A stretch of 12,143 nucleotides of DNA, from positions 1 to 12,143 of the forward strand of contig JAUSKS010000292.1 in assembly GCA_030646595.1 (NCBI GenBank). The letters are read 5' to 3'. The notes below the pieces were generated by a model that saw nothing but the letters and a program-made list of their open reading frames with translations, was not told where the DNA came from and ran no database searches. The translations under genes and the position numbers were made by a program. The stretch's first letter is position 1. The number at the start of each line of letters is the position of its first letter. The stretch is from Gallionellaceae bacterium. Lineage in GTDB: Bacteria > Pseudomonadota > Gammaproteobacteria > Burkholderiales > Gallionellaceae. This document shows, in pieces, positions 2,137-12,143 of the stretch.

Positions 2137-2340
2137 ATGAAGCTGAAAGTGATTGTGCATGAAGCGGAAGAAGGGGGTTACTGGGCAGAAGTCCCGGCCA
2201 TTCCAGGTTGCTCTACACAGGGAGAAACTTTTGAAGAGTTGTTGCACAATCTTTATGAGGCGGTTGAAGGATGCCTGTCCGTAGATATTGCTCCTATTGC
2301 AGCCTCATCGCATGACCGCATTTTTGAAATTGCGGTATGA
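2137..2340 (+). CDS. hicB: HicB-family antitoxin (short form)
   Basis: This small 67-aa protein has the HicB signature: MKLKVIVHEAEEGGYWAEVP at the start, then IPGCSTQGETFEELLHNLYEAVEG. This is the partial RNase H-like fold with which HicB antitoxins bind and block the HicA toxin. It stops soon after that domain, so the C-terminal HTH or ribbon-helix-helix DNA-binding domain of longer HicB proteins (E. coli about 138 aa) is absent. Self-repression by this protein alone is therefore doubtful. Its stop overlaps the hicA start by ATGA. The antitoxin-first order is opposite to E. coli hicAB but is known in other HicBA pairs. The pair sits inside the arginine operon, between argF and argG. Confidence 0.88.
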   Translation: MKLKVIVHEAEEGGYWAEVPAIPGCSTQGETFEELLHNLYEAVEGCLSVDIAPIAASSHDRIFEIAV

Positions 2341-2543
2341 AACCAGTTTCCGGCAAGGAGCTGGCGCGTGTGCTTGAGCGTCGCGGCTGGACGTTGTTGC
2401 GGGTCAACGGCAGTCACCATATTTATGGTAAGCCAGGCAGCGTAATCAGACTGTCCGTGCCTATACACGGAAAACAAGCACTCAAAATTGGCTTATTACA
2501 TCATTTGCTTAAACTAGCGGAAATTTCAGAAAACGAACTATGA
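2337..2543 (+). CDS. hicA: HicA-family mRNA interferase toxin
   Basis: This 68-aa protein matches the HicA family, whose members cleave mRNA and have a double-stranded-RNA-binding-like fold. Family features run in order: an N-terminal [12 protein letters not shown] helix, a strand ending in NGSHHIY with the likely catalytic histidine at H27 (or H28), a strand RLSVPIHG, then [19 protein letters not shown] at the C-terminus. The length is usual and the gene looks intact. Its ATG overlaps the hicB stop (ATGA, 2337-2340) and its stop overlaps the argG start (ATGA, 2540-2543). No Shine-Dalgarno is evident before it, so translation probably depends on hicB translation, which would keep antitoxin in excess. 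Confidence 0.88.
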
Positions 2544-3766
2544 ACGAAATCAAAAAAGTCGTCCTCGCCTACTCCGGCGGTCTGGATACCTCGGTCATCC
2601 TGAAGTGGTTGCAAGATACCTATCAGTGTGAAGTAGTCACCTTCACCGCTGACATCGGTCAAGGTGAAGAGCTGGAACCCGCACGCAAGAAGGCTTTGCA
2701 GTTTGGCATCAAACCGGAAAATATTTTCATTGATGATTTGCGCGAAGAATTCGTGCGTGATTTTGTGTTCCCCATGTTCCGTGCCAACACGGTTTATGAA
2801 GGGGAATACCTGCTCGGCACTTCCATCGCACGGCCCTTGATTGCCAAGCGTCAAATTGAAATTGCCAAACAGACTGGCGCGCAGGCAGTCGCGCATGGTG
2901 CCACTGGCAAGGGCAACGATCAGGTGCGCTTTGAACTCGGCTATTACGCGCTCAACCCGGCGATCAAGGTTATCGCGCCGTGGCGCGAATGGGATTTGCT
3001 GTCGCGCGAGAAGCTGATGGCTTATGCTGAAAAACACGGCATTCCAGTGGATATGAAACATAAGCAAGGCGGCTCACCCTACTCCATGGATGCCAATCTG
3101 CTGCACATCAGCTTCGAAGGCCGCCATCTGGAAAATCCTGCTGCCGAAGCGGAAGAAAGCATGTGGCGCTGGACCGTGTCGCCGGAGCAAGCACCGGATA
3201 CTGCCGAGTATCTCGACATCGAATACCAGCACGGTGACATTGTGGGCTTGAATGGCAAACAGCTTAGCCCAGCGCAAGTCCTTACCCAACTCAATAAGCT
3301 GGGCGGTAAACACGGTATAGGCCGTCTCGACTTAGTGGAAAACCGCTACGTCGGCATGAAGTCGCGTGGCTGTTACGAGACACCGGGTGGCACGATTATG
3401 CTACGTGCGCACCGCGCCATCGAATCAATCACGCTGGATCGTGAGGTCGCGCATCTAAAAGATGATCTGATGCCGCGCTATGCCAGCATGATCTATAACG
3501 GCTACTGGTGGTCGCCCGAACGCCGGGCATTGCAAACCCTGATTGACCATACGCAACAACAAGTCAATGGCTGGGTGCGCGTCAAGCTGTACAAAGGCAA
3601 TGTCATCGTCGTGGGCCGCGATTCCAAAACCAACTCTTTATTCGATCCCAACATCGCCACCTTCGAGGATGACAAGGGCGCTTATGATCAAAAAGATGCA
3701 GCAGGCTTCATCAAGCTGAACGCTTTGCGCATGCGCATCGCGGCAAAGTTAAATACCAGGAAATAA
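2540..3766 (+). CDS. argG: Argininosuccinate synthase (ArgG)
   Basis: This enzyme condenses citrulline with aspartate using ATP to make argininosuccinate, the penultimate step of arginine synthesis. The P-loop-like AYSGGLDTS motif lies at residues 10-18. The [13 protein letters not shown] citrulline/aspartate-binding stretch starts at G120, and [13 protein letters not shown] follows. The 408-aa length fits the short bacterial class rather than the 447-aa E. coli form. The ATG overlaps the hicA stop by 4 nt. The preceding 20 bases hold no good Shine-Dalgarno, only a distant GGAA, so initiation probably relies on ribosomes finishing hicA. This is an unusual dependence for a housekeeping gene. 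No argH is present in the window. Confidence 0.96.
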
Positions 3767-3776
3767 GGAAATCACC

Positions 3777-4094
3777 ATGTCAGAAAAATTTGATAACGTC
3801 AGTGTCGTCAAAAAAGCCAATGTATTTTTTGATGGCCAATGCGTGTCGCATTCTGTGCTGTTCCCCGATGGCACTCGTAAAACGGTAGGCGTCATCATGC
3901 CTGGCAGCAAGCTCACCTTTAACGTCAGCACCCCTGAATTGATGGAAATCACCAGCGGCACCTGCCAAGTTAAACTGGCCAGTGAGGCCGCATTCAAACC
4001 TTATACTGCGGGTACCTCATTCAGCGTGGCTGCCAATAGCAGCTTTGAAATTCATGCTGAAGATGCCGTAAACTATGTTTGCAGTTTTGGTTAA
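3777..4094 (+). CDS. ppnP: Pyrimidine/purine nucleoside phosphorylase (PpnP, DUF1255)
   Basis: This small cupin-fold protein belongs to the YaiE/PpnP family, whose E. coli member phosphorolyses several nucleosides to free base and ribose-1-phosphate. Its 105 aa are slightly more than the E. coli protein (about 94 aa). Family landmarks are the start FDNVSVVKKANVFFDGQCVSH, then VLFPDGTRKTVGVIMPG, FNVSTPELMEITSG, and the C-terminal FSVAANSSFEIHAEDAVNYVCSF. An AAGGA Shine-Dalgarno (3765-3769) overlaps the argG stop and is 7 nt from the ATG. The gap to argG is only 10 nt, so it is very likely in the arg transcript. It may be the last gene before the palindromic element downstream. Confidence 0.92.
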   Translation: MSEKFDNVSVVKKANVFFDGQCVSHSVLFPDGTRKTVGVIMPGSKLTFNVSTPELMEITSGTCQVKLASEAAFKPYTAGTSFSVAANSSFEIHAEDAVNYVCSFG

Positions 4095-4283: not shown

Positions 4284-4772
4284 ATGCCCTCGTTCGATAT
4301 CGTGTCCGAAGTAGACAAGACCGAAGTTAAAAATGCGCTCGAGCAGACCAACAAGGAAGTAAGCACACGTTTTGATTTTAAGGGCTCGGATGCGCGCGTG
4401 GAACAGGCCGAATTGGTGCTGACTGTCCATGCCGACAATGAATTTCAGCTCAACCAGGTACAGGATATTCTTAACGCCAAGTTGATCAAGCGTGGTGTGG
4501 ATATCAAATGCCTGGAGATCAGCGACAAAATCGACAAGGTCAGCGGCAACAAAGTAAAGCGTTCGTGCACCGTAAAAGTAGGCGTGGAAATCGAACTGGC
4601 CAAGAAAATTGTCAAGCTCCTGAAAGAAAGCAAGATGAAAGTGCAGGCCAGCATTCAGGGTGATACCGTGCGCGTCAGCGGCAAAAACCGCGATGATCTG
4701 CAACAGGCCATTGCCTTCATCAAAAAATCCATTACGGACTTTCCATTGCAGTACCAGAATTTCCGCGACTGA
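4284..4772 (+). CDS. yajQ: YajQ-family nucleotide-binding protein
   Basis: This 162-aa protein matches the YajQ family (UPF0234), made of two ferredoxin-like domains. Members bind nucleic acid or nucleotides, and a Xanthomonas homologue was reported as a cyclic-di-GMP receptor. Hallmarks are the N-terminal [33 protein letters not shown] (about residues 32-45), and the C-terminal [17 protein letters not shown] followed by [10 protein letters not shown]. Family length is normal. An AAGGA ribosome binding site (4273-4277) is 6 nt before the ATG. It lies just outside the right arm of the inverted-repeat element, which may separate this gene's expression from ppnP. Its precise role here cannot be read from sequence. 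Confidence 0.93.
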
Positions 4773-4803
4773 TCGCAAAGGTTGTATCTCTGAATTTCAT
4801 TAT

Positions 4804-4809
4804 AAGGAG
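4804..4809 (+). promoter_or_regulatory. Ribosome binding site of the peptidase-hydrolase gene
   Basis: AAGGAG lies 6 nt before the ATG at 4816, a near-ideal Shine-Dalgarno. It fixes the start of the 637-aa protein and shows that the gene is translated independently of yajQ, which ends 43 nt earlier. No convincing -35/-10 pair was found in the short gap. Confidence 0.7.
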
Positions 4810-4815
4810 ATTTAA

Positions 4816-6729
4816 ATGTCAGCAAAAAAAAGCTCACGTTCAAGCCAGAAAAAATCGCCCTCCTCTGTTGTTCCCAAACGTAATGTTATTCCCGACAAGT
4901 TAGATCTGCGCGACCGACCTTATTTGCCGCCAGTCGCAGTGATACCGGGTGCAATCCTCGAACCCAAAACGCCTATCCCGGTGCTAAACCAGGGCGACAC
5001 CAATGCCTGCACCGGCTTTGCCCTGGCCAGTGTGCTTTTTCACTTGCAACATGCTGCCCGCCGCAAGCCTGCTCATTATCAAGTGTCACCATTCATGTTG
5101 TATTCCATGGCTCGCCGTTATGATGAATTTCCCGGCGACCCCCAGGTAGACACAGGATCCAGCTTGCGCGGAGCAATGAAGGGTTGGTACAAGCATGGCG
5201 TGTGCGCACATACGCTATGGACTAATGAAGCGATGCCCACCGCTCCCATCAGAAAAGCGACAGACGACTGGTGGCTAGACGCAGTAAGGCGTCCGCTGGG
5301 TGCTTATTACCGTGTGGATACGCGCTCGGTTACTGATATGCATGTGGCATTGAATGAAATTGGCATTCTATATGCCAGCGCGATTTGTCATAGCGGTTGG
5401 GATGTTGGATTTTCTGCCAAACAAAAATCCGGGTGGTGGACCATACCTGTACAACAAGCGAGCGCAAGTGATGGCGGCCATGCCTTTGCTATCGTAGGCT
5501 ATAACCGCGATGGCTTCATTATTCAGAACTCATGGGGTACAGGGTGGGGCAGCAAGGGCCTCGCTGTGCTCACTTATGAAGATTGGCTGGATAATGCGAT
5601 GGACTGCTGGGTCGCCCAGTTGGGCGTGGTGACTGATCTGCATCTGGAGATTGCACAATCCAAGACCTTACGCTTGCGCGATGGCAAGGTGCAACTGGCC
5701 AGCGATTCGTCCTTGCGCAAACGAGAACTCAGTCCCTTCATCATAGACATGGAGAATAATGGGCGGCTCAGCAACACTGGCGATTTCCGCACTCAGGATA
5801 GTGACCTCGAGGCGCTGGTCAATTTGCATCTGGGCGCGGCCCGCCAGGCCTGGGGGCTGGATAAAACAGCACCGGTAGACATTGCCATTTATGCCCATGG
5901 CGGTTTAACCTCGGAGGGCGATGCGGCAGAAACAGCGGCGCTGTGGATACCGGCGCTATATGACAATAAAATTTTTCCGATTTTTCTGATGTGGGAAACC
6001 GATCTTTTATCTACGCTCAAGAATCGCCTGGAAGATCTGTTGCAGGGACAACCGCGTCCTACCGGCGGCCTGATGGATAGCTTCAAGAGCTGGTGGAACG
6101 AGCGACTGGAAAAATTACTGGCCAAACCCGGCACTGTGATCTGGGGCGAGATGAAACAAAATGCGGTGGCCATTTCCACCGCTGCCGATAGCGGTGGAGC
6201 CAAGCTTTATAATGCCTGCCAGCGCTCTCCCTACTTTGCCGATCCGAGCAAAGTGCGCTTGCATTTAATTGGCCACTCAGCAGGCTCTATCCTGCATAGC
6301 CATGTGATAGAACGGCTAGGTGGTGCAGGCTGGAATTTTGAGAGTGTCAATTTTATGGCACCGGCGGTGCGCGTGGATACGTTCCAGAGCAAGGTAATCC
6401 CGGCCATTAAAAATGGCAAGATCAAAAGCTATAACCAATTTCATCTGGCTGACGGACAGGAGCTTAAAGACCCAACGTGCAAGCCGATTCTAGGCTATAG
6501 CCGTTCTTTGCTATACCTGGTTTCGCGTTCATTTGAAAAAGGGGAGACTACTCCCATACTGGGCATGGAAAAATATTTCCAAAGTTTGATTGCGCCACAA
6601 AAACTGCGCGGAGTACGTAGCTGGGTTGCTCCCAACAAGGAATCCAGCAGTACCACACATGGCGATTTTGATAGTGATGCAACGACACTAGCCAGCGTCA
6701 TTGCACTGATTAAAGGAAAGCTGCCTTAA
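4816..6729 (+). CDS. Papain-like (C1) cysteine peptidase fused to a serine alpha/beta hydrolase
   Basis: This 637-aa protein appears to combine two enzymes. Residues 1-25 are Lys/Ser-rich and probably disordered, with no signal peptide. A C1 peptidase core follows, from about 27 (KLDLRDRPYLPP) to 270. It has oxyanion glutamine Q59 and nucleophile C65 in NQGDTNACTGFA, H222 in GGHAFAIVGYN, and N238 in QNSWGTGWG. The Q-to-C (6) and H-to-N (16) spacings equal those of papain (19/25, 159/175). No inhibitory propeptide of the I29 type is visible. After a linker, residues from about 350 look like an alpha/beta hydrolase: HGGL (361-364) as oxyanion loop, GHSAGS with S488 as nucleophile, D546 after a beta strand as possible acid, and H615 near the C-terminus as possible base. 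I do not recognise a named family with this exact architecture. It could act on proteins and esters or lipids, perhaps as an effector, toxin or defence enzyme, but no substrate is evident. It is convergent with pnp. Confidence 0.85.
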   Translation: MSAKKSSRSSQKKSPSSVVPKRNVIPDKLDLRDRPYLPPVAVIPGAILEPKTPIPVLNQGDTNACTGFALASVLFHLQHAARRKPAHYQVSPFMLYSMARRYDEFPGDPQVDTGSSLRGAMKGWYKHGVCAHTLWTNEAMPTAPIRKATDDWWLDAVRRPLGAYYRVDTRSVTDMHVALNEIGILYASAICHSGWDVGFSAKQKSGWWTIPVQQASASDGGHAFAIVGYNRDGFIIQNSWGTGWGSKGLAVLTYEDWLDNAMDCWVAQLGVVTDLHLEIAQSKTLRLRDGKVQLASDSSLRKRELSPFIIDMENNGRLSNTGDFRTQDSDLEALVNLHLGAARQAWGLDKTAPVDIAIYAHGGLTSEGDAAETAALWIPALYDNKIFPIFLMWETDLLSTLKNRLEDLLQGQPRPTGGLMDSFKSWWNERLEKLLAKPGTVIWGEMKQNAVAISTAADSGGAKLYNACQRSPYFADPSKVRLHLIGHSAGSILHSHVIERLGGAGWNFESVNFMAPAVRVDTFQSKVIPAIKNGKIKSYNQFHLADGQELKDPTCKPILGYSRSLLYLVSRSFEKGETTPILGMEKYFQSLIAPQKLRGVRSWVAPNKESSSTTHGDFDSDATTLASVIALIKGKLP

Positions 6730-6750: not shown

Positions 6751-6778
6751 GTAGGGGTGCGATGAATCGCACCCCTAC
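6751..6778. repeat. Perfect 12-bp stem palindrome between convergent genes
   Basis: GTAGGGGTGCGA (6751-6762) and TCGCACCCCTAC (6767-6778) are perfect reverse complements around a TGAA loop. The palindrome lies in the 61-nt gap between the stop of the peptidase-hydrolase gene and the stop of pnp, where a bidirectional terminator would be expected. However, neither strand has a T-run after the stem, so it is not a canonical intrinsic terminator. It may still protect 3' ends or stop transcription with Rho. A GTAGGGG-type interspersed REP-like repeat is an equally good reading. Confidence 0.7.
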
Positions 6779-6790
6779 ACCTGCATGGAA

Positions 6791-8902
6791 TTATTCCGCA
6801 GCGGGTGCCACAGCCTCCGCCGCTGGAATAAGCGCCTTCATGCTCAAGCGCAAACGACCCTTCTCATCTGCCTCCAGCACTTTGACTTTTACTATCTGGC
6901 CTTCTTTCAGCACATCAGCCACTGCATTCACACGCTCGTTGGATATCTGCGAGATATGCAGCAAACCATCTTTGCCCGGCATGATATTAACGATGGCACC
7001 AAAATCCAGCATTTTGACGACCGGGCCTTCATAGGTTTTACCCACTTCCACTTCTGCCACGATGTCTTCGATGCGCTTTTTGGCCATCAGGCCGCCTTCA
7101 CTGCTGACGCTGGAGATGGTCACATTGCCTTCGTCATCAATATCAATTGCAGTGCCGGTTTCTTCAGTCAGTGCGCGGATTACTGCACCGCCTTTACCAA
7201 TCACATCACGGATTTTTTCCGGATTGATCTTGATCTTGATCATGCGCGGCGCGTGGGCCGATACTTCTTCACGCACGGCAGGCATAGCCTGTTTCATGAT
7301 GCCGAGGATGTGCATGCGCCCTTCACGCGCCTGGCTCAATGCAACCTGCATGATCTCGCGTGTGATGCCGTTGATCTTGATGTCCATCTGTAGCGCAGTA
7401 ATGCCTTGCTCCGAGCCGGCCACCTTGAAATCCATATCGCCCAGATGATCTTCATCACCGAGTATGTCGGTCAGCACGGCGAAGCGATTACCTTCCTTGA
7501 TCAAGCCCATGGCAATGCCGGCAATATGTGTTTTATACGGAACCCCCGCATCCATCAGTGCCAGGCAACCGCCACATACTGAGGCCATGGAGCTGGAGCC
7601 ATTCGATTCGGTAATTTCCGAAACCACGCGAATGGAGTAGCCAAATTCTTCTTCGCTGGGCAAACCCGCCACCAGCGCGCGTTTAGCCAGACGACCGTGG
7701 CCGATTTCGCGCCGTTTGGGTGTGCCCACGCGGCCAGTCTCCCCTGTGGAATAAGGCGGGAAATTATAATTCAGCATGAAACGATCGGTGTACTCGCCTT
7801 GCAAGGCATCTATTTTTTGCGCATCGCGCGCTGTGCCCAGCGTTGCCACGACCAAGGCCTGCGTTTCTCCACGCGTGAACAGGACCGAACCATGAGTACG
7901 CGGCAGTACGCCAGTGCGTATGGTAATCGGTCGCACAGTGCGGGTATCGCGCCCGTCTATACGGGGGTCACCGTTGAGTATCTGGCCGCGCACAATCTTG
8001 GCCTCGAGTGCGCTAAACAAATCATTGATGTGATTCTTGCTCAGTGTGGCATCCTCTGCCAGCAAGGCTTCCACCACCCGGCTGCGAATCGCATCCACCT
8101 GCGTGGTACGCGCCTGTTTTTGCCGTACTGCATAAGCAGCTTGCAAGGTATTTTCTGCCAGCTCTGCCATCTTGCTAATTAACGCCTGATCCTTGGTGAC
8201 GGGTGCCCAATCCCAGGCATCTGCACCGGCTGCATCTGCCATTTCAGTAATGGCCTGGATGACGACCTGCATTTGCTGATGACCAAACATCACGGCACCC
8301 AGCATCACATCTTCGGGCAATTCCTGCGCTTCCGATTCCACCATCAAGACTGCCTGTTGCGTACCAGCCACCACCAAATCCAGCTTTGATTCCGCCAGCT
8401 CATCGGCGGTTGGGTTGAGAATATATTCGCCGTTGAGATAACCCACACGCGCTGCGCCCACCGGGCCATCAAAGGGTATGCCGGACAGTGCCAGCGCCGC
8501 AGAAGCGCCTATCAGCGAAGGAATATCTGAATCTATTTGGCTATCCGAAGAAATAACGGTGGCAACAATTTGCACTTCGTTATAGAAACCTTCCGGGAAC
8601 AGTGGCCGCAAGGGGCGATCAATCAAGCGCGAAGTCAGAATTTCTTTTTCGCTGGGACGGCCTTCACGGCGGAAAAAACCGCCAGGAATTTTGCCAGCGG
8701 CATAAGTGCGTTCTTGATAATCCACGGTCAAGGGGAAAAAATCCTGGGTTGGATCAGCATCTTTGCGGCCTACGACAGTAACCAGTACCACGGTATCGTC
8801 CAGGCTGACCATGACTGCGCCGCTGGCCTGGCGTGCAATTTCACCGGTTTCGAGCGTGAGTTGATGCTTACCGAATGCTAATGTTTTTTTGTAATGACTC
8901 AC
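6791..8902 (-). CDS. pnp: Polyribonucleotide nucleotidyltransferase (PNPase)
   Basis: PNPase is the 3'-to-5' phosphorolytic exoribonuclease of mRNA decay and a trimeric partner of the RNA degradosome. The 703-aa protein shows every expected part. The first RNase PH-like domain has the RNA-contacting FFRR (76-79). An all-alpha linker follows. The second RNase PH domain has catalytic D485, D491 and K493 in [11 protein letters not shown] (matching D486/D492/K494 of E. coli). Next come a KH domain with GKGG (569-572) and an S1 domain (about 620-690) with LLHISQIS. The tail is short and Ala-rich. The start codon is GTG (8900-8902), reading [11 protein letters not shown]. An AGAGAGG ribosome binding site (8911-8917) is 8 nt upstream. 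It follows rpsO by 102 nt, the conserved rpsO-pnp arrangement. Confidence 0.97.
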
Positions 8903-8929
8903 GGTGTTAGCCTCTCTATGTACATGACA

Positions 8930-8945
8930 TGGCGCACAAGCGCCA
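8930..8945 (-). promoter_or_regulatory. Leader hairpin just upstream of pnp
   Basis: On the minus strand TGGCGC-TTGT-GCGCCA forms a perfect 6-bp stem with a 4-base loop, ending about 27 nt before the pnp GTG start. In E. coli the pnp leader folds into hairpins cut by RNase III, after which PNPase represses its own synthesis. This hairpin is in the right place for such control, but its short length makes an RNase III site uncertain. Confidence 0.45.
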
Positions 8946-8965
8946 CAGGTGGAATAACATCAAAT

Positions 8966-8986
8966 GGCATGGGCCATCATCATGCC
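8966..8986 (-). promoter_or_regulatory. Second hairpin in the rpsO-pnp gap
   Basis: GGCATG (8966-8971) and CATGCC (8981-8986) can pair around a 9-base loop, 19 nt downstream of the rpsO stop. On the minus strand the stem is preceded by a GGGGCG stretch and followed by ATTTGATGTT, so it is only a weak intrinsic terminator or attenuator. It may mark the rpsO mRNA 3' end or a processing point. An alternative pairing ATGGC/GCCAT (8964-8977) overlaps it. Confidence 0.4.
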
Positions 8987-9004
8987 CCGCCCCATTAATT
9001 TATA

Positions 9005-9274
9005 TTATTTACGCAATTCCAGACGTTGAATCAAGGCACGGTAGCTGTCCGCATTCTTACCTTTGAGATAATCCAGCAGCTTGCGGCGGCGGCTTACCAG
9101 GCGCAGCAAACCACGGCGGGAATGGTGATCCTTGACATGATCCTTGAAATGACCAGTCAGATAGTTGATACGTGCTGTCATCAGCGCAACCTGTACCTCT
9201 GGGGAACCGGTATCGCCTTTAACACGTTGGTGTTCAGCCACAATTTGCGCTTTCTGCGCTGCCGTAATAGACAT
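9005..9274 (-). CDS. rpsO: 30S ribosomal protein S15
   Basis: S15 is a primary-binding protein of the 16S rRNA central domain and contributes to an intersubunit bridge. The 89-aa length is exactly that of the family. Conserved stretches are [23 protein letters not shown] (20-42) and [22 protein letters not shown], with rRNA-contacting H42, D49 and S52 (E. coli H41/D48/S51 without the initiator Met). It ends with [10 protein letters not shown]. An AAGAGAG ribosome binding site (9281-9287) lies 6 nt before the ATG. A promoter is seen just upstream, so transcription of rpsO-pnp probably starts here. Confidence 0.98.
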
Positions 9275-9303
9275 ATATTTCTCTCTTCACTAAAAAGGGC
9301 CGT

Positions 9304-9333
9304 ATTTTACTCTCTAAAGCCCTTGTTACTCAA
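9304..9333 (-). promoter_or_regulatory. Probable sigma-70 promoter of rpsO-pnp
   Basis: Reading the minus strand, TTGAGT (-35, 9333-9328) and TAAAAT (-10, 9309-9304) are separated by 18 bases. This predicts a start near 9297 and a short leader of roughly 23 nt before the rpsO ATG. The boxes match the consensus at 4 of 6 (TTGACA) and 5 of 6 (TATAAT) positions. The placement, between the SGNH hydrolase stop and rpsO, is where a promoter is expected. Confidence 0.6.
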
Positions 9334-9389
9334 GTCTATTTACAGGGCAAAGAACGCCTGCAAATAGCCTATAGAGGCCTCTGTCGCTG

Positions 9390-10469
9390 TTATAAAACGG
9401 AATTATTAGCCAGGTAGTTGTACAACACATCTGCCATTAAGCGGTGGCCCAGATGGTTGGGGTGCACGATCTCACCGAATATTGCTGTATTTTTGGGATA
9501 GCCTGTTTCTATTAACTCTTCAATTTTGATAAAGGGTATGCCAGCTTGTGCAGCCGCCCCCCCTAAATTAATCCGGTTTTCGATGATGGTCTTGGCCTGT
9601 AGCGGATTGGATACGGCATCGCGATAAACCTGGGCAAGAATTATTGGCTTGGCATGATGTTCCTGGGCAATCCGGGTGATTTCCATCATATTTTTTACGT
9701 AATCCTCGCTAGATACCCGGTTAACCTGTTGCGCAACCACGCCGGCGCTACTGCCATTTCTTGCGGAGCGCAACCAGCGCGCAGCATAAACCACAGCCTG
9801 GCTTTGCGCGCTTAACCAGCGCAGGCCAACCTGCCAAGATTCACTGGGTAGCGTGTCCTTGTCAGCACGCGCACGGTAATCGCTGTCATTCCAGCCATAG
9901 TTGACTATCAATATGTCGGGCTGCAACCAACCTATATCGCGCTTGATCCAGGCCAGCCCCTGATGGCTGGTATAACCAGGCGTGGCCCATGCAATCACTT
10001 CCACCTTTCTGCCCGGCAGCAAAGCTTTGAGTTTATCTTCCAACAAACCGGGATAAGGCAATACCGCTTTATCATAAGCCAGTGGATTATCTGCCCAGGT
10101 CGTGGGAACACGATAACCAAAGGTAACTGAATCTCCCAAGCAAACGATGCGCAGTGCGCCCGGCTCCTTTTTTTTAATATCGGCAGGATAACGTACATGT
10201 TGGCTATTGGTAGAAAAAGGCGTGTAATCCCACCATTGATCATGGAGATTGGGTTTCAAACGCCAGCCCAGCAAAGGATCACCTTCAAAGGTCGCGTTAC
10301 CAGCATGATCATCACCATGGGTCGTGCCAGTGACATAAACCTGTATGCTGGGAATATAGGGCAGGCTAAGGCGAACGCCACCCTCAACCACCAGCAGAAT
10401 CAATATTAAAATCAGATAGGGTAGCGCATAAAATAGCAGTTTTTTCTTTAGTGACAACTCATCTGTCAT
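9390..10469 (-). CDS. Membrane-anchored SGNH/GDSL-type hydrolase
   Basis: This 359-aa protein starts with LSLKKKLLFY and a hydrophobic helix (about residues 9-30), so it is probably inserted N-in with its catalytic domain in the periplasm. SGNH blocks are visible: block I G112-D-S-V-T-F-G with nucleophile S114, a block II-like ATPGYTSHQG, and block III GWNDSDY with N194. Block V is GEIVHPNHLGH with catalytic H336, where the usual Asp three residues before the His is Glu (E333). Such enzymes remove or transfer acyl groups on glycans or lipids. The gene follows the SxtK-like gene by 33 nt, with an AGGAG site (10480-10484) 10 nt before the ATG. It therefore probably belongs to the carbamoyltransferase operon. 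The substrate is unknown. Confidence 0.85.
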   Translation of the reverse strand: MTDELSLKKKLLFYALPYLILILILLVVEGGVRLSLPYIPSIQVYVTGTTHGDDHAGNATFEGDPLLGWRLKPNLHDQWWDYTPFSTNSQHVRYPADIKKKEPGALRIVCLGDSVTFGYRVPTTWADNPLAYDKAVLPYPGLLEDKLKALLPGRKVEVIAWATPGYTSHQGLAWIKRDIGWLQPDILIVNYGWNDSDYRARADKDTLPSESWQVGLRWLSAQSQAVVYAARWLRSARNGSSAGVVAQQVNRVSSEDYVKNMMEITRIAQEHHAKPIILAQVYRDAVSNPLQAKTIIENRINLGGAAAQAGIPFIKIEELIETGYPKNTAIFGEIVHPNHLGHRLMADVLYNYLANNSVL

Positions 10470-10502
10470 AGCGCGTTCGCTCCTGATATTTGCCCTTGCT
10501 AT

Positions 10503-10655
10503 CTAAAATAAAGTATAGATAAAGGGCGCAATAGCCGAACCCTGTGCGAAGACTATCAATCCGCCTAGCAGCAGCAGGATCACAATGATAGGCAAGAGCC
10601 AGAATTTCTTGCGTGCGCGCATGAAGGCCCATAAATCTTTTAATAATTCCAGCAT
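10503..10655 (-). CDS. SxtK-like small membrane protein (DUF5989 family)
   Basis: This 50-aa gene encodes a protein beginning MLELLKDLWAFMRARKKFWL, followed by one strongly hydrophobic helix (LPIIVILLLLGGLIVFA, about residues 21-37) and the tail QGSAIAPFIYTLF. The pattern ELLKDLWAF, basic RARKKFWLLP, helix, then QGSAIAPFIYTLF is what I recall for the DUF5989/SxtK family. These proteins occur beside carbamoyltransferases, and SxtK is the corresponding gene in the saxitoxin cluster. The ATG overlaps the SxtJ-like stop by one base (TAATG), pointing to coupled translation. Function is unknown. A role as an accessory membrane subunit of the neighbouring carbamoyltransferase or SxtJ protein is inference. 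Confidence 0.85.
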   Translation of the reverse strand: MLELLKDLWAFMRARKKFWLLPIIVILLLLGGLIVFAQGSAIAPFIYTLF

Positions 10656-11062
10656 TAGAAGGGGTGCTCCATCTTGTCGCGTGAAGCAGTGCTGCTCTGC
10701 ACGCGGTAACTGTCAATATGCTCATCCAAACGGCGTGTCATGGGATCTTTTCCCAATATGCGCATGATGAGGCCAAAAGGAAAAAATACTACAAAAAAAA
10801 CCAGACTCAATATGATACGAGTGTTGATCCAGCCCAGAACATTGGCCAGCCTCATCCAAACATTATAAACCGGCCTGAGCGTAGCGGGCAGCAGCGTCCC
10901 CCATGCGCCCAGCATAGCTGCCGTAATCCATGGCCACAGAGGAAACGTCCACTGCCATATCCACGGCAGCAGCACACCAAAGAAAACGATAATGGCTGCG
11001 CCAGTAACCCAGGCAAAATTACGCAGTTCTTTATCATTCAGTTGCACAATTTCAGTTTGCAC
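10655..11062 (-). CDS. SxtJ-family membrane protein
   Basis: This 135-aa hydrophobic protein matches the SxtJ pattern. A short polar N-terminus (QTEIVQLNDKELRNFAWV) precedes one helix (about residues 15-36), a Trp/Pro-rich second helix (about 41-60), the segment LRPVYNVWMRLANVLGWINT and a third helix (about 82-104). RILGKDPMTRRLD and a polar tail follow. The start is uncertain. GTG at 11062 is chosen because GGGAG (11068-11072) lies 5 nt before it. The longest frame begins with TTG at 11074, directly after the carbamoyltransferase stop (11075-11077), and GTG at 11068 is also possible. No ATG exists near the N-terminus. The gene lies between the carbamoyltransferase and SxtK-like genes, the sxtI-J-K order. 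Its biochemical role is unknown. Confidence 0.85.
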   Translation of the reverse strand: MQTEIVQLNDKELRNFAWVTGAAIIVFFGVLLPWIWQWTFPLWPWITAAMLGAWGTLLPATLRPVYNVWMRLANVLGWINTRIILSLVFFVVFFPFGLIMRILGKDPMTRRLDEHIDSYRVQSSTASRDKMEHPF

Positions 11063-11074
11063 ACGCACTCCCAA

Positions 11075-12143
11075 TTAATCCAGCTCAAACTCGCTTTGCC
11101 AGCTATCATCCTTTTTCCACACTGGCTGCTCTGCTTTAGCCATGAGAAAACCCTCTATCGAAAGGTAGTCCATCTCAGTACGCATAAAGCAACGGTAAGC
11201 ATCCTGCGGGGTGCCTACGATAGGTTCACCACGCACATTGAATGAGGTGTTGACCAGCACGCCACAACCTGTATGACCATGGAACGCCTGCAATAATTGA
11301 TGATAACGGGGATTGGTTTCCTGATGCACCGTCTGGATGCGGGCAGAATAATCTACATGAGTGATGGTAGGCAAGGTGGAGCGCTTAACATTGAGTTTTT
11401 CAATGCCAAATAATTGTTGTTGCTGTTCAGTCATGCCTATGCGTAACGATTCCTGTATGGGCGCAACGATGAGCATATAAGGGCTGCGACTGTGCAGATC
11501 AAAATATCTGGCTACCTGCTCGGCCAGTACCGATGGCGCGAAAGGCCGGAACGATTCGCGATATTTTATTTTGAGGTTCATCACCGATTGCATTTTAGCG
11601 CTACGCGGATCGCCTATGATGGAACGCCCGCCCAGGGCGCGCGGGCCAAACTCCATGCGCCCCTGAAACCAGCCCACAACATTCTCTTCCGCTAAAATCT
11701 GCGCCAGCCTGGGCATCAATGCGGCATCCTCCAGGCGGATATATTTTGCGCCCATGTCGTCCAGTTGTTGCTGTATCACCGCATCTGTAAACCGTGGCCC
11801 CAGATACGCCCCTTGCATGGCATCGCCAGCGACCACTTTGCGCGGAGCTGCGTGATAGCCATACCAGGCCGCCTGTGCTGCACCCAGCGCGCCGCCCGCA
11901 TCACCCGCTGCTGGCTGTATCCATAGCTCCTTGAATGGTCCTTCGCGCAATATCCTGCCATTGGCCACACAATTGAGTGCCACCCCGCCTGCCAGACACA
12001 GTGCATCCATGCCGGTTTCTTTATGCAGGGTACGCGCCAGACGTAAAACCACTTCTTCAGTTACAGCCTGAATGGAAGCGGCAATATCCATTTCCCTTTG
12101 TGTCAGCTTGCCTGCCGGTTTACGTGCGCTGCCGCCAAACAAT
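11075..12143 (-). CDS. Carbamoyltransferase, NodU/SxtI type (C-terminal part, cut by window edge)
   Basis: About 355 C-terminal residues of an O-carbamoyltransferase of the NodU/CmcH/TobZ/SxtI family are present; the N-terminus lies beyond the window. These enzymes use carbamoyl phosphate and ATP through a carbamoyladenylate to carbamoylate a hydroxyl of a sugar or other small molecule. The end of the Kae1-like domain shows LAGGVALNCVANG and QPAAGDAGGALGAA. The C-terminal carbamoyltransferase domain then begins near YLGPRF and contains GWFQGRMEFGPRALGGRSII, followed by KYRESFRPFAPS and GVLVNTSFNVRGEPIV, all strongly conserved. The visible first codon (TTG) is internal, not a start. The SxtJ-like gene begins within about 12 nt of the stop. 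Carbamoyl phosphate use links it only formally to argF. Confidence 0.93.
   Translation of the reverse strand, partial: LFGGSARKPAGKLTQREMDIAASIQAVTEEVVLRLARTLHKETGMDALCLAGGVALNCVANGRILREGPFKELWIQPAAGDAGGALGAAQAAWYGYHAAPRKVVAGDAMQGAYLGPRFTDAVIQQQLDDMGAKYIRLEDAALMPRLAQILAEENVVGWFQGRMEFGPRALGGRSIIGDPRSAKMQSVMNLKIKYRESFRPFAPSVLAEQVARYFDLHSRSPYMLIVAPIQESLRIGMTEQQQQLFGIEKLNVKRSTLPTITHVDYSARIQTVHQETNPRYHQLLQAFHGHTGCGVLVNTSFNVRGEPIVGTPQDAYRCFMRTEMDYLSIEGFLMAKAEQPVWKKDDSWQSEFELD

Follow-up and report, generated by a model that had tools for sequence, protein, structure and literature searches.

We report here that the same serine hydrolase, of predicted alpha/beta fold, is, by sequence comparison, built into at least three bacterial protein architectures: papain-type peptidase plus hydrolase; a GH19 or muramidase domain plus papain plus hydrolase; and Amidase_2 plus hydrolase plus caspase. 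This modularity of the hydrolase is the main new result; the combination of caspase with amidase had already been noticed in 2012. The form studied here is a two-enzyme fusion encoded in the window, by which we mean the whole 12,143-nucleotide stretch of Gallionellaceae contig JAUSKS010000292.1 that was analyzed. Sequence relatives make it likely that this fusion represents one variety of a multi-enzyme protein group that is widespread in bacteria, apparently undescribed and predicted to break down cells, and the fusions to wall hydrolases and caspases among these relatives point to a role in lysis or killing. The gene, its parts and its neighbors are as follows.

4804..4809, + strand: Shine-Dalgarno-like AAGGAG, 6 bases before the ATG (sequence)
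4816..6729, + strand: open frame with ATG start, papain plus alpha/beta hydrolase fusion, 637 aa
4816..4869, + strand: Lys/Arg/Ser-rich tail, residues 1-18, predicted to be flexible (pLDDT 45 and 61 in the first two ten-residue blocks)
4870..4941, + strand: N-terminal arm, residues 19-42, with conserved PDxxDLRDR, counterpart of the xylellain arm (VIA structural alignment, conservation)
4942..5634, + strand: papain-type (C1A, xylellain-like) peptidase domain, residues 43-273
4990..5010, + strand: Q59 (4990-4992, oxyanion) and C65 (5008-5010, predicted nucleophile), by conservation
5479..5529, + strand: H222 (5479-5481) and N238 (5527-5529), predicted catalytic pair, by conservation
5635..6726, + strand: alpha/beta serine hydrolase domain, residues 274-637
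5896..5907, + strand: HGGL, residues 361-364, oxyanion-hole-type loop after a core strand (H361, G362 and G363 in 66/66)
6271..6285, + strand: GHSAG nucleophile elbow with S488 (6277-6279), by conservation
6460..6471, + strand: E549 (6460-6462) and D552 (6469-6471), candidate hydrolase acids, by conservation
6658..6660, + strand: H615, predicted hydrolase histidine, by conservation
Upstream neighbors (Pfam): class-III aminotransferase, ornithine carbamoyltransferase (OTCase), argininosuccinate synthase, Ppnp, DUF520 (YajQ)
Downstream neighbors, opposite strand (Pfam): PNPase, S15, GDSL lipase, SxtJ, carbamoyltransferase

A preliminary description of this DNA, made from the sequence alone, had proposed a fusion of two enzymes with two complete active sites, and Q59, C65, H222, N238, S488, D546, H615 and H361 of the HGGL loop all lie at the positions that it gave. 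Conservation was assessed in alignment A3, whose 66 rows are the window, 51 of the 80 loci from a scan of genome_contigs, 9 of the 16 loci from a search of relatives, 4 database proteins and 1 viral contig. A3 contains neither near-copies nor broken or truncated frames, and no plasmid loci, so that the 66/66 counts exclude plasmid relatives; partial frames (L077, L080, L081 and L085) and frames at contig edges (L073 and L079) are outside both A3 and the neighbor counts. Down to 33% identity, Q59, C65, H222, N238, HGG361-363, S488, E549, D552, H615 and D619 are identical in all 66 rows, so that the active sites are no chance pattern, and they are also identical in the 120 best database matches, the window itself being among these. 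Rather than missing from most homologues, the active-site C, H and S residues are kept (66/66, 120/120 and 120/120). A papain fold and an alpha/beta hydrolase fold are both predicted for the respective halves, and the AlphaFold model of the whole protein has a mean pLDDT of 90.3 and a pTM of 0.86. Conservation together with two confident models thus upholds the proposed fusion, and the 5472 homologues described below rule out chance or an annotation artefact.

For the papain half, sequence and model support an assignment as a C1A peptidase with a predicted catalytic site. Peptidase_C1 (PF00112) is the sole Pfam model that passes its cut-off (22.1 bits vs 20.7), and the C1A Cys/His/Asn and oxyanion Gln stand in papain order and spacing within a papain fold. 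Q59, C65, H222 and N238 occur in 66/66 rows of A3 and in 120/120 proteins of both the close set and the GH19 set of database matches. The closest solved relative of this half, by sequence and by structure, is xylellain (PDB 3ois), a short C1A peptidase of Xylella fastidiosa. Xylellain is a single-domain enzyme, whereas the fusion protein carries a further 364 residues that fold, in the model, as a serine hydrolase. A paper on prokaryotic C1A peptidases (PMC10380794) describes, in the part available, both single-domain and multidomain members, and the word 'hydrolase' is absent from its main text.

Ahead of the papain core lie two further segments. The preliminary description was right about a basic, Ser-containing tail, which is placed here at the N terminus as a correction: Lys and Arg make up 28% of residues 2-26 compared with 11% of the whole fusion protein, and their median share is 25% in the 82 N-terminal tails recognized among 95 homologues examined. 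Behind the tail follows the arm, in which D27, D30 and D33 are invariant in A3. The VIA alignment places model residues 19-271 onto xylellain 29-290, and the mature enzymes listed begin at about model residue 29-44. Residues 19 to about 30-42 are therefore outside the mature papain core and align with the xylellain arm and with parts of cathepsin zymogens, making it plausible that residues 19-42 form an autoinhibitory arm. An inhibitory propeptide had been denied to this protein; no propeptide family is indeed found among its Pfam matches, but the likeness of the arm to xylellain and cathepsin zymogen segments renders the denial doubtful.

The C-terminal half shows the features of the alpha/beta hydrolase superfamily, namely the predicted fold and a GxSxG elbow followed by an acid and then a histidine. 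S488 is present in 66/66 rows of A3 and in 120/120 proteins of each of the close, GH19 and caspase sets, and E549 is invariant in these same four sets. D552 occurs in 66/66, 120/120, 110/120 and 120/120, and H615 in 66/66, 120/120, 118/120 and 120/120, respectively. D546 was rejected as the catalytic acid, since it is found in 52/66 rows of A3 and is replaced by K or R in 78/120 caspase-type relatives. The hydrolase site proposed earlier thus stands for S488, H615 and HGGL; D546 is in its stated place but variable, and E549, invariant in every set counted, is with D552 a candidate for the acid. A Foldseek search with the hydrolase half returned only one PDB match under E 1e-3, and the substrate is not readable from so common a fold. 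DUF900 (PF05990) shares the fold, the GxSxG elbow and the Ser-acid-His order, and 8 of 62 C-terminal halves match it at E <= 0.01, but the window's protein scores 12 bits vs a cut-off of 20.5. The consensus of the hydrolase contains the stretches WET, EMK.NA, RSLLYLVS and THG.FD.D. To our knowledge, these stretches are its own and set it apart from DUF900.

That no named family holds this pairing is borne out in the libraries searched, in which there is no NCBIfam match and only Peptidase_C1 passes its Pfam cut-off. Listed homologues, where their sources name them, are called 'C1 family peptidase' or 'hypothetical protein'. A text search of the literature, covering mostly non-subscription journals, found no published description of a papain plus hydrolase family and no publication on a hydrolase common to the three architectures.

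Homologues of the fusion are numerous and unevenly distributed. A protein search yielded 5472 at E <= 1e-3 among 7998 scored candidates, and the best 120 of these are 72-100% identical and 600-660 aa long. Going by record titles, the 80 loci of the genome_contigs scan belong to Pseudomonadota, Nitrospirota, Acidobacteriota, Rokubacteria, Bacteroidota, Chloroflexota and other groups; full-length homologues are assigned by their records to these six and to other phyla. Matches were obtained in 17 of 61 genomes and 5 of 39 genera in the search of relatives, and in 25 of 397 genomes, many of them only partially, in an even draw of Pseudomonadota. Five homologues from the same genus are identical to proteins of Candidatus Nitrotoga genomes, which makes Nitrotoga the probable host of the window's gene. 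In a 90-row tree made by a quick method, the window falls into a starred 19-row clade that mixes Acidobacteriota, Nitrospirota and Pseudomonadota, and same-genus homologues occupy three other places. This placement fits repeated transfer, with paralogy as an alternative. One gene copy (L086), from a metagenome-assembled genome labelled Bordetella parapertussis, stands beside Desulfobulbaceae and the window's genus in the tree, and the label is probably wrong. A phage origin of the whole gene was rejected: 17 of 18 viral-contig loci match the papain half or less, L104 alone is nearly full-length, and none of 19 phage records reaches 80% coverage of the query.

Longer relatives carry a wall hydrolase ahead of the same two enzymes. 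In L128, an N-acetylmuramidase domain (PF11860, E 2.5e-61, above the Pfam cut-off) precedes papain and hydrolase, and in L129 the leading domain is GH19 (E 1.5e-9, also above cut-off). GH19 matches below the cut-off were obtained in L017 (E 0.006), L132 (E 1e-4) and L137 (E 0.008), with PG_binding_1 at or above cut-off in L017 and L132; the genome of L017 is placed in the window's genus and is 98% complete and 5% contaminated. With L129 as the query, 5485 of 7996 candidate proteins matched, a set that overlaps the 5472 to some extent, and the best 120 of these have a median length of 899 aa and contain PF00182 in 117 cases and PF00112 in 114. In the third architecture, represented by L141 (identical to a Magnetococcales protein), the hydrolase lies between Amidase_2 and caspase. 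The hhalign comparison of the window's hydrolase profile with L141 covers 334 columns with a probability of 100 and E 2.2e-43. L141 retrieved 367 proteins, and among the best 120 PF00656 is found in 120 and PF01510 in 118; all 120 match the hydrolase profile and keep S488, E549, D552 and H615. Of these 120 proteins, 114 contain the caspase Cys motif D.CHSG and 41 the exact string SGHG, for which reason we do not claim caspase activity for all L141-type proteins. The window's own clade, judged by its 120 best matches of 600-660 aa, is without a wall hydrolase.

Relatives on plasmids are more varied. GHSAG or AHSAG is present in 7 of 13 plasmid relatives examined and absent in 6, and in three of those six (L155-L157) the hydrolase half was not demonstrated. 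L022 and L023, two of the 17 rows of alignment A2, are without the GHSAG serine; the genes (L022:7962-9944 and L023:5962-7914) have lost serine elbow and HGG loop while keeping the papain residues, and appear to encode pseudo-hydrolase forms. The C1-like proteins L155:5110-7641, L156:4945-7821 and L157:4918-7521, on Paracoccus and Roseivivax plasmids, are each encoded by a gene transcribed away from that of a very large hypothetical protein, and in L155 and L156 Trypsin_2 precedes the C1-like region. Rhizobial plasmid members have a CHAP, CHAP plus PG_binding or amidase plus PG_binding (Amidase_2) gene alongside.

Several further genes were seen near plasmid members. On S. meliloti psymA (L023), a GDSL-lipase plus caspase gene (7939-9855) directly follows the papain plus hydrolase gene, and on R. 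leguminosarum pRle248d (L020) a gene of this type (2183-4093) lies about 3.7 kb from it; the two GDSL-lipase plus caspase proteins are 61% identical. An FGE/SUMF1 gene is also near in L023, and trypsin and YEATS-associated-helix genes are near in L020. Animal-type haem peroxidase genes occur near papain plus hydrolase genes in Palleronia (L022:6187-7902) and Rhizobium etli (L160:10783-12408). Since these relatives are only 24-37% identical to the window's protein, the peroxidase and GDSL plus caspase neighbors were rejected as a guide to its function, and plasmid neighbors assign none to it.

Within the window, 43 bases separate the fusion gene from yajQ, which precedes it on the same strand. 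The strong ribosome binding site reported for it is confirmed as AAGGAG. Its supposed stand-alone position is not clearly so: a search of the + strand at positions 4600-4815 gave no sigma-70-like site, and with the short gap this suggests that the gene may share the transcript of yajQ. With 52% GC, the gene is close to its neighbors in base composition. Among 18 other genomes of the same genus, one of them without yajQ, argG-ppnP-yajQ is kept without the fusion gene (in the 1.5 kb examined behind yajQ) in 17 of the 17 having yajQ; pnp was not found in 8-14 kb stretches from five of the genomes so compared. Between the fusion gene and pnp lies a perfect inverted repeat, GTAGGGGTGCGAT-GA-ATCGCACCCCTAC, at 6751-6778. 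Its 20-base core has 6 sites in its own genome at <=2 mismatches (3 exact) compared with 0 for a reversed control, and the repeat is thus probably a REP-like or terminator element. Genes for a GDSL lipase, a small SxtJ-family protein and a carbamoyltransferase stand in a row at 9390-12142 on the - strand and are perhaps part of a surface-modification cluster. The window contains no Rfam match and no tRNA.

Neighborhoods of the wider family, whose tabulation the preliminary description had suggested, gave no recurrent partner among the families listed. With open frames called mechanically in 59 non-redundant loci, a same-strand neighbor lies within 60 bases upstream in 4 of 58 cases and downstream in 11 of 55. 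The scan covered 180 of 203 neighboring open frames of >=110 aa from the 59 loci and the first 25 families of each list; a conserved operon partner was rejected, as the largest recurrences among the families listed were OmpA (4/93) and TerC (3/87), and no immunity- or secretion-like partner recurred. Flanks of the wall-hydrolase and caspase types (20 open frames compared) showed no partner gene keeping the same place; one gene, next to that of L128, is found again in Pseudoxanthomonas loci, and genes further off are linked by a few weak matches. A PADLOC-type defence neighborhood was likewise rejected, the matches among the first 93 neighboring frames, taken without a background set, being mostly single and including generic MotB/OmpA. 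For the fusion protein, PADLOC-DB gave nothing beyond a weak match to Cmr6 (E 0.063 over 17 residues).

Export of the protein as an effector had also been considered. Phage_GPD/VgrG is present in 5 and absent in 19 of 24 carrier genomes tested; these 24 are drawn from the 41 genomes that matched in the search of relatives and the Pseudomonadota draw, G101 being matched only by the hydrolase. It is found in 2 of 5 wall-hydrolase carriers tested (G122 and G440) but neither in the window's genome (G000, about 84% complete) nor in 6 carriers of the same genus. At that completeness, delivery of the window's protein by VgrG was set aside as unsupported for this genome, and the earlier suggestion of an exported effector, in the sense of VgrG-type T6SS export, lacks support there. 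A crude hydropathy scan of 95 homologues gave only borderline flags, at 2 N-termini and at 2 inner segments. The same scan flagged N-termini in 14/120 caspase-type and 4/120 GH19-type proteins and inner segments in 9/120 GH19-type proteins, so that some relatives may be exported or membrane-bound.

Two described systems resemble the proteins reported here. Asplund-Samuelsson et al. 2012 (PMC3501461), in the part of that paper available, report proteins with a cysteine peptidase (caspase) and a peptidoglycan amidase (Amidase_2) on one chain, once together with a GDSL lipase; one such protein is called 'a highly destructive weapon', and autolysis and programmed death are discussed. L141 and its 120 best matches carry the window-type hydrolase on one chain with amidase and caspase (2 of the 120 without an amidase match), as in the types of that paper. 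The window's protein differs in having papain in place of caspase and no wall hydrolase, and an alpha/beta hydrolase is unmentioned in the available part of the paper. The window's protein matches neither the caspase nor the amidase Pfam family; homology connects its hydrolase with the central portion of the amidase plus caspase proteins. Kaur et al. 2020 (PMC7159879), in the part available, describe caspase and alpha/beta hydrolase pairs in VMAP (MoxR-vWA) ternary conflict systems and suggest that the two work together. A cysteine peptidase is thus paired with an alpha/beta hydrolase in both cases; in VMAP systems the hydrolase is an adjoining gene of a multi-gene system, whereas the window has a papain-type peptidase on the same chain and no MoxR or vWA family among its ten neighbors (Pfam).

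The reading that we prefer, held tentatively as somewhat less than an even bet, is that the fusion is a latent cytoplasmic enzyme for self-directed demolition (lysis) of the cell. The N-terminal arm would keep the papain half latent until a trigger, presumably damage or infection, after which the papain half would cut the producing cell's own proteins and the hydrolase would cut a lipid or other acyl ester, probably acyl esters of the cell's own membrane; the producing cell would be the target and would be killed or lysed. With a wall hydrolase added, the longer relatives would have the complete set of cutters, for membrane, protein and wall, on one chain, and the window's form would be this set without the wall part. 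A cell-demolishing enzyme is suggested by the kept active sites, the lack of a clear export signal and of a recurrent partner, the signs of cross-phylum transfer and the fusions to wall hydrolases and caspases. Its patchy distribution and its cross-phylum clade count for this reading, as do the lack of VgrG in 19 of the 24 genomes tested and the connection made by Asplund-Samuelsson et al. between caspase plus amidase proteins and autolysis and programmed death. We favor self-directed action, which we infer, because endolysin-type domains without secretion signals reach the wall only through a breached membrane and the hydrolase could provide the breach. Counted against it are the missing wall hydrolase in the window's clade (best 120 matches), the loss of the hydrolase serine in some plasmid relatives, the relatives flagged by hydropathy, and the position of the gene behind yajQ among housekeeping genes with no evident defence neighborhood; the VgrG proteins of G122 and G440 would fit delivery equally.

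Contact-dependent effectors use GH19-, muramidase- and amidase-like domains. The resemblance of our GH19, muramidase and amidase fusions to such domains, the CHAP and amidase genes beside rhizobial plasmid members and the VgrG-type proteins in 5/24 genomes would suit an antibacterial or anti-eukaryote effector that is exported by a system not recognized here and breaks down both envelope and proteins of its target, with the wall-hydrolase fusions as the complete weapon and the window's form as a cut-down version. We consider this unlikely given that Phage_GPD/VgrG is absent from the window's genome and its same-genus carriers, that no immunity-like neighbor recurs among those scanned and that few N-termini resemble secretion signals in the crude scan. 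A non-lethal intracellular housekeeping enzyme, whose two halves degrade an acylated protein or a polymer that is stored or damaged and whose basic tail directs it to nucleic acid, to polyphosphate or to a granule, would agree with the Lys/Arg-rich tails, with the location among arginine-synthesis genes, ppnP, yajQ and pnp away from any evident defence genes, and with the strict conservation of both active sites, which fits steady use. The patchy presence (25/397 and 5/39, as above) and the three other places of same-genus homologues in the tree speak against it, and fusions to wall hydrolases and caspases do not suit a storage-polymer role, so that we give this explanation a low probability. 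Because L022 and L023 keep the papain residues while the hydrolase serine and HGG loop are lost, a non-catalytic hydrolase domain appears to be tolerated, and in the caspase-type relatives this hydrolase is retained, flanked by amidase and caspase. The hydrolase half could then mainly sense or bind a ligand such as an acyl compound and gate the peptidase, the two active sites acting in sequence rather than side by side; the window's family, however, keeps the hydrolase triad as strictly as the papain residues, which argues for catalysis and leaves this model quite improbable in our view.

Self-directed demolition, which remains our preferred reading, also has a bolder form that we regard as speculative and rather doubtful. 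The proteins would be modular lysis machines, each encoded by a single gene and all based on one hydrolase family. In them, opening the membrane would fall to the hydrolase, destroying proteins to papain or caspase, and cutting the wall to a GH19, muramidase or amidase domain that can be attached. They would represent a chromosomal one-polypeptide counterpart of the phage holin-endolysin cassette, serving self-destruction and passed between phyla, with the window's protein as the two-enzyme core form.

In conclusion, we find one hydrolase shuffled among papain, caspase and wall-hydrolase partners, which provides a testable idea on single-gene cell demolition. The role of bacterial caspases is a long-standing question, and the sharing of this hydrolase links them to a papain-based counterpart.
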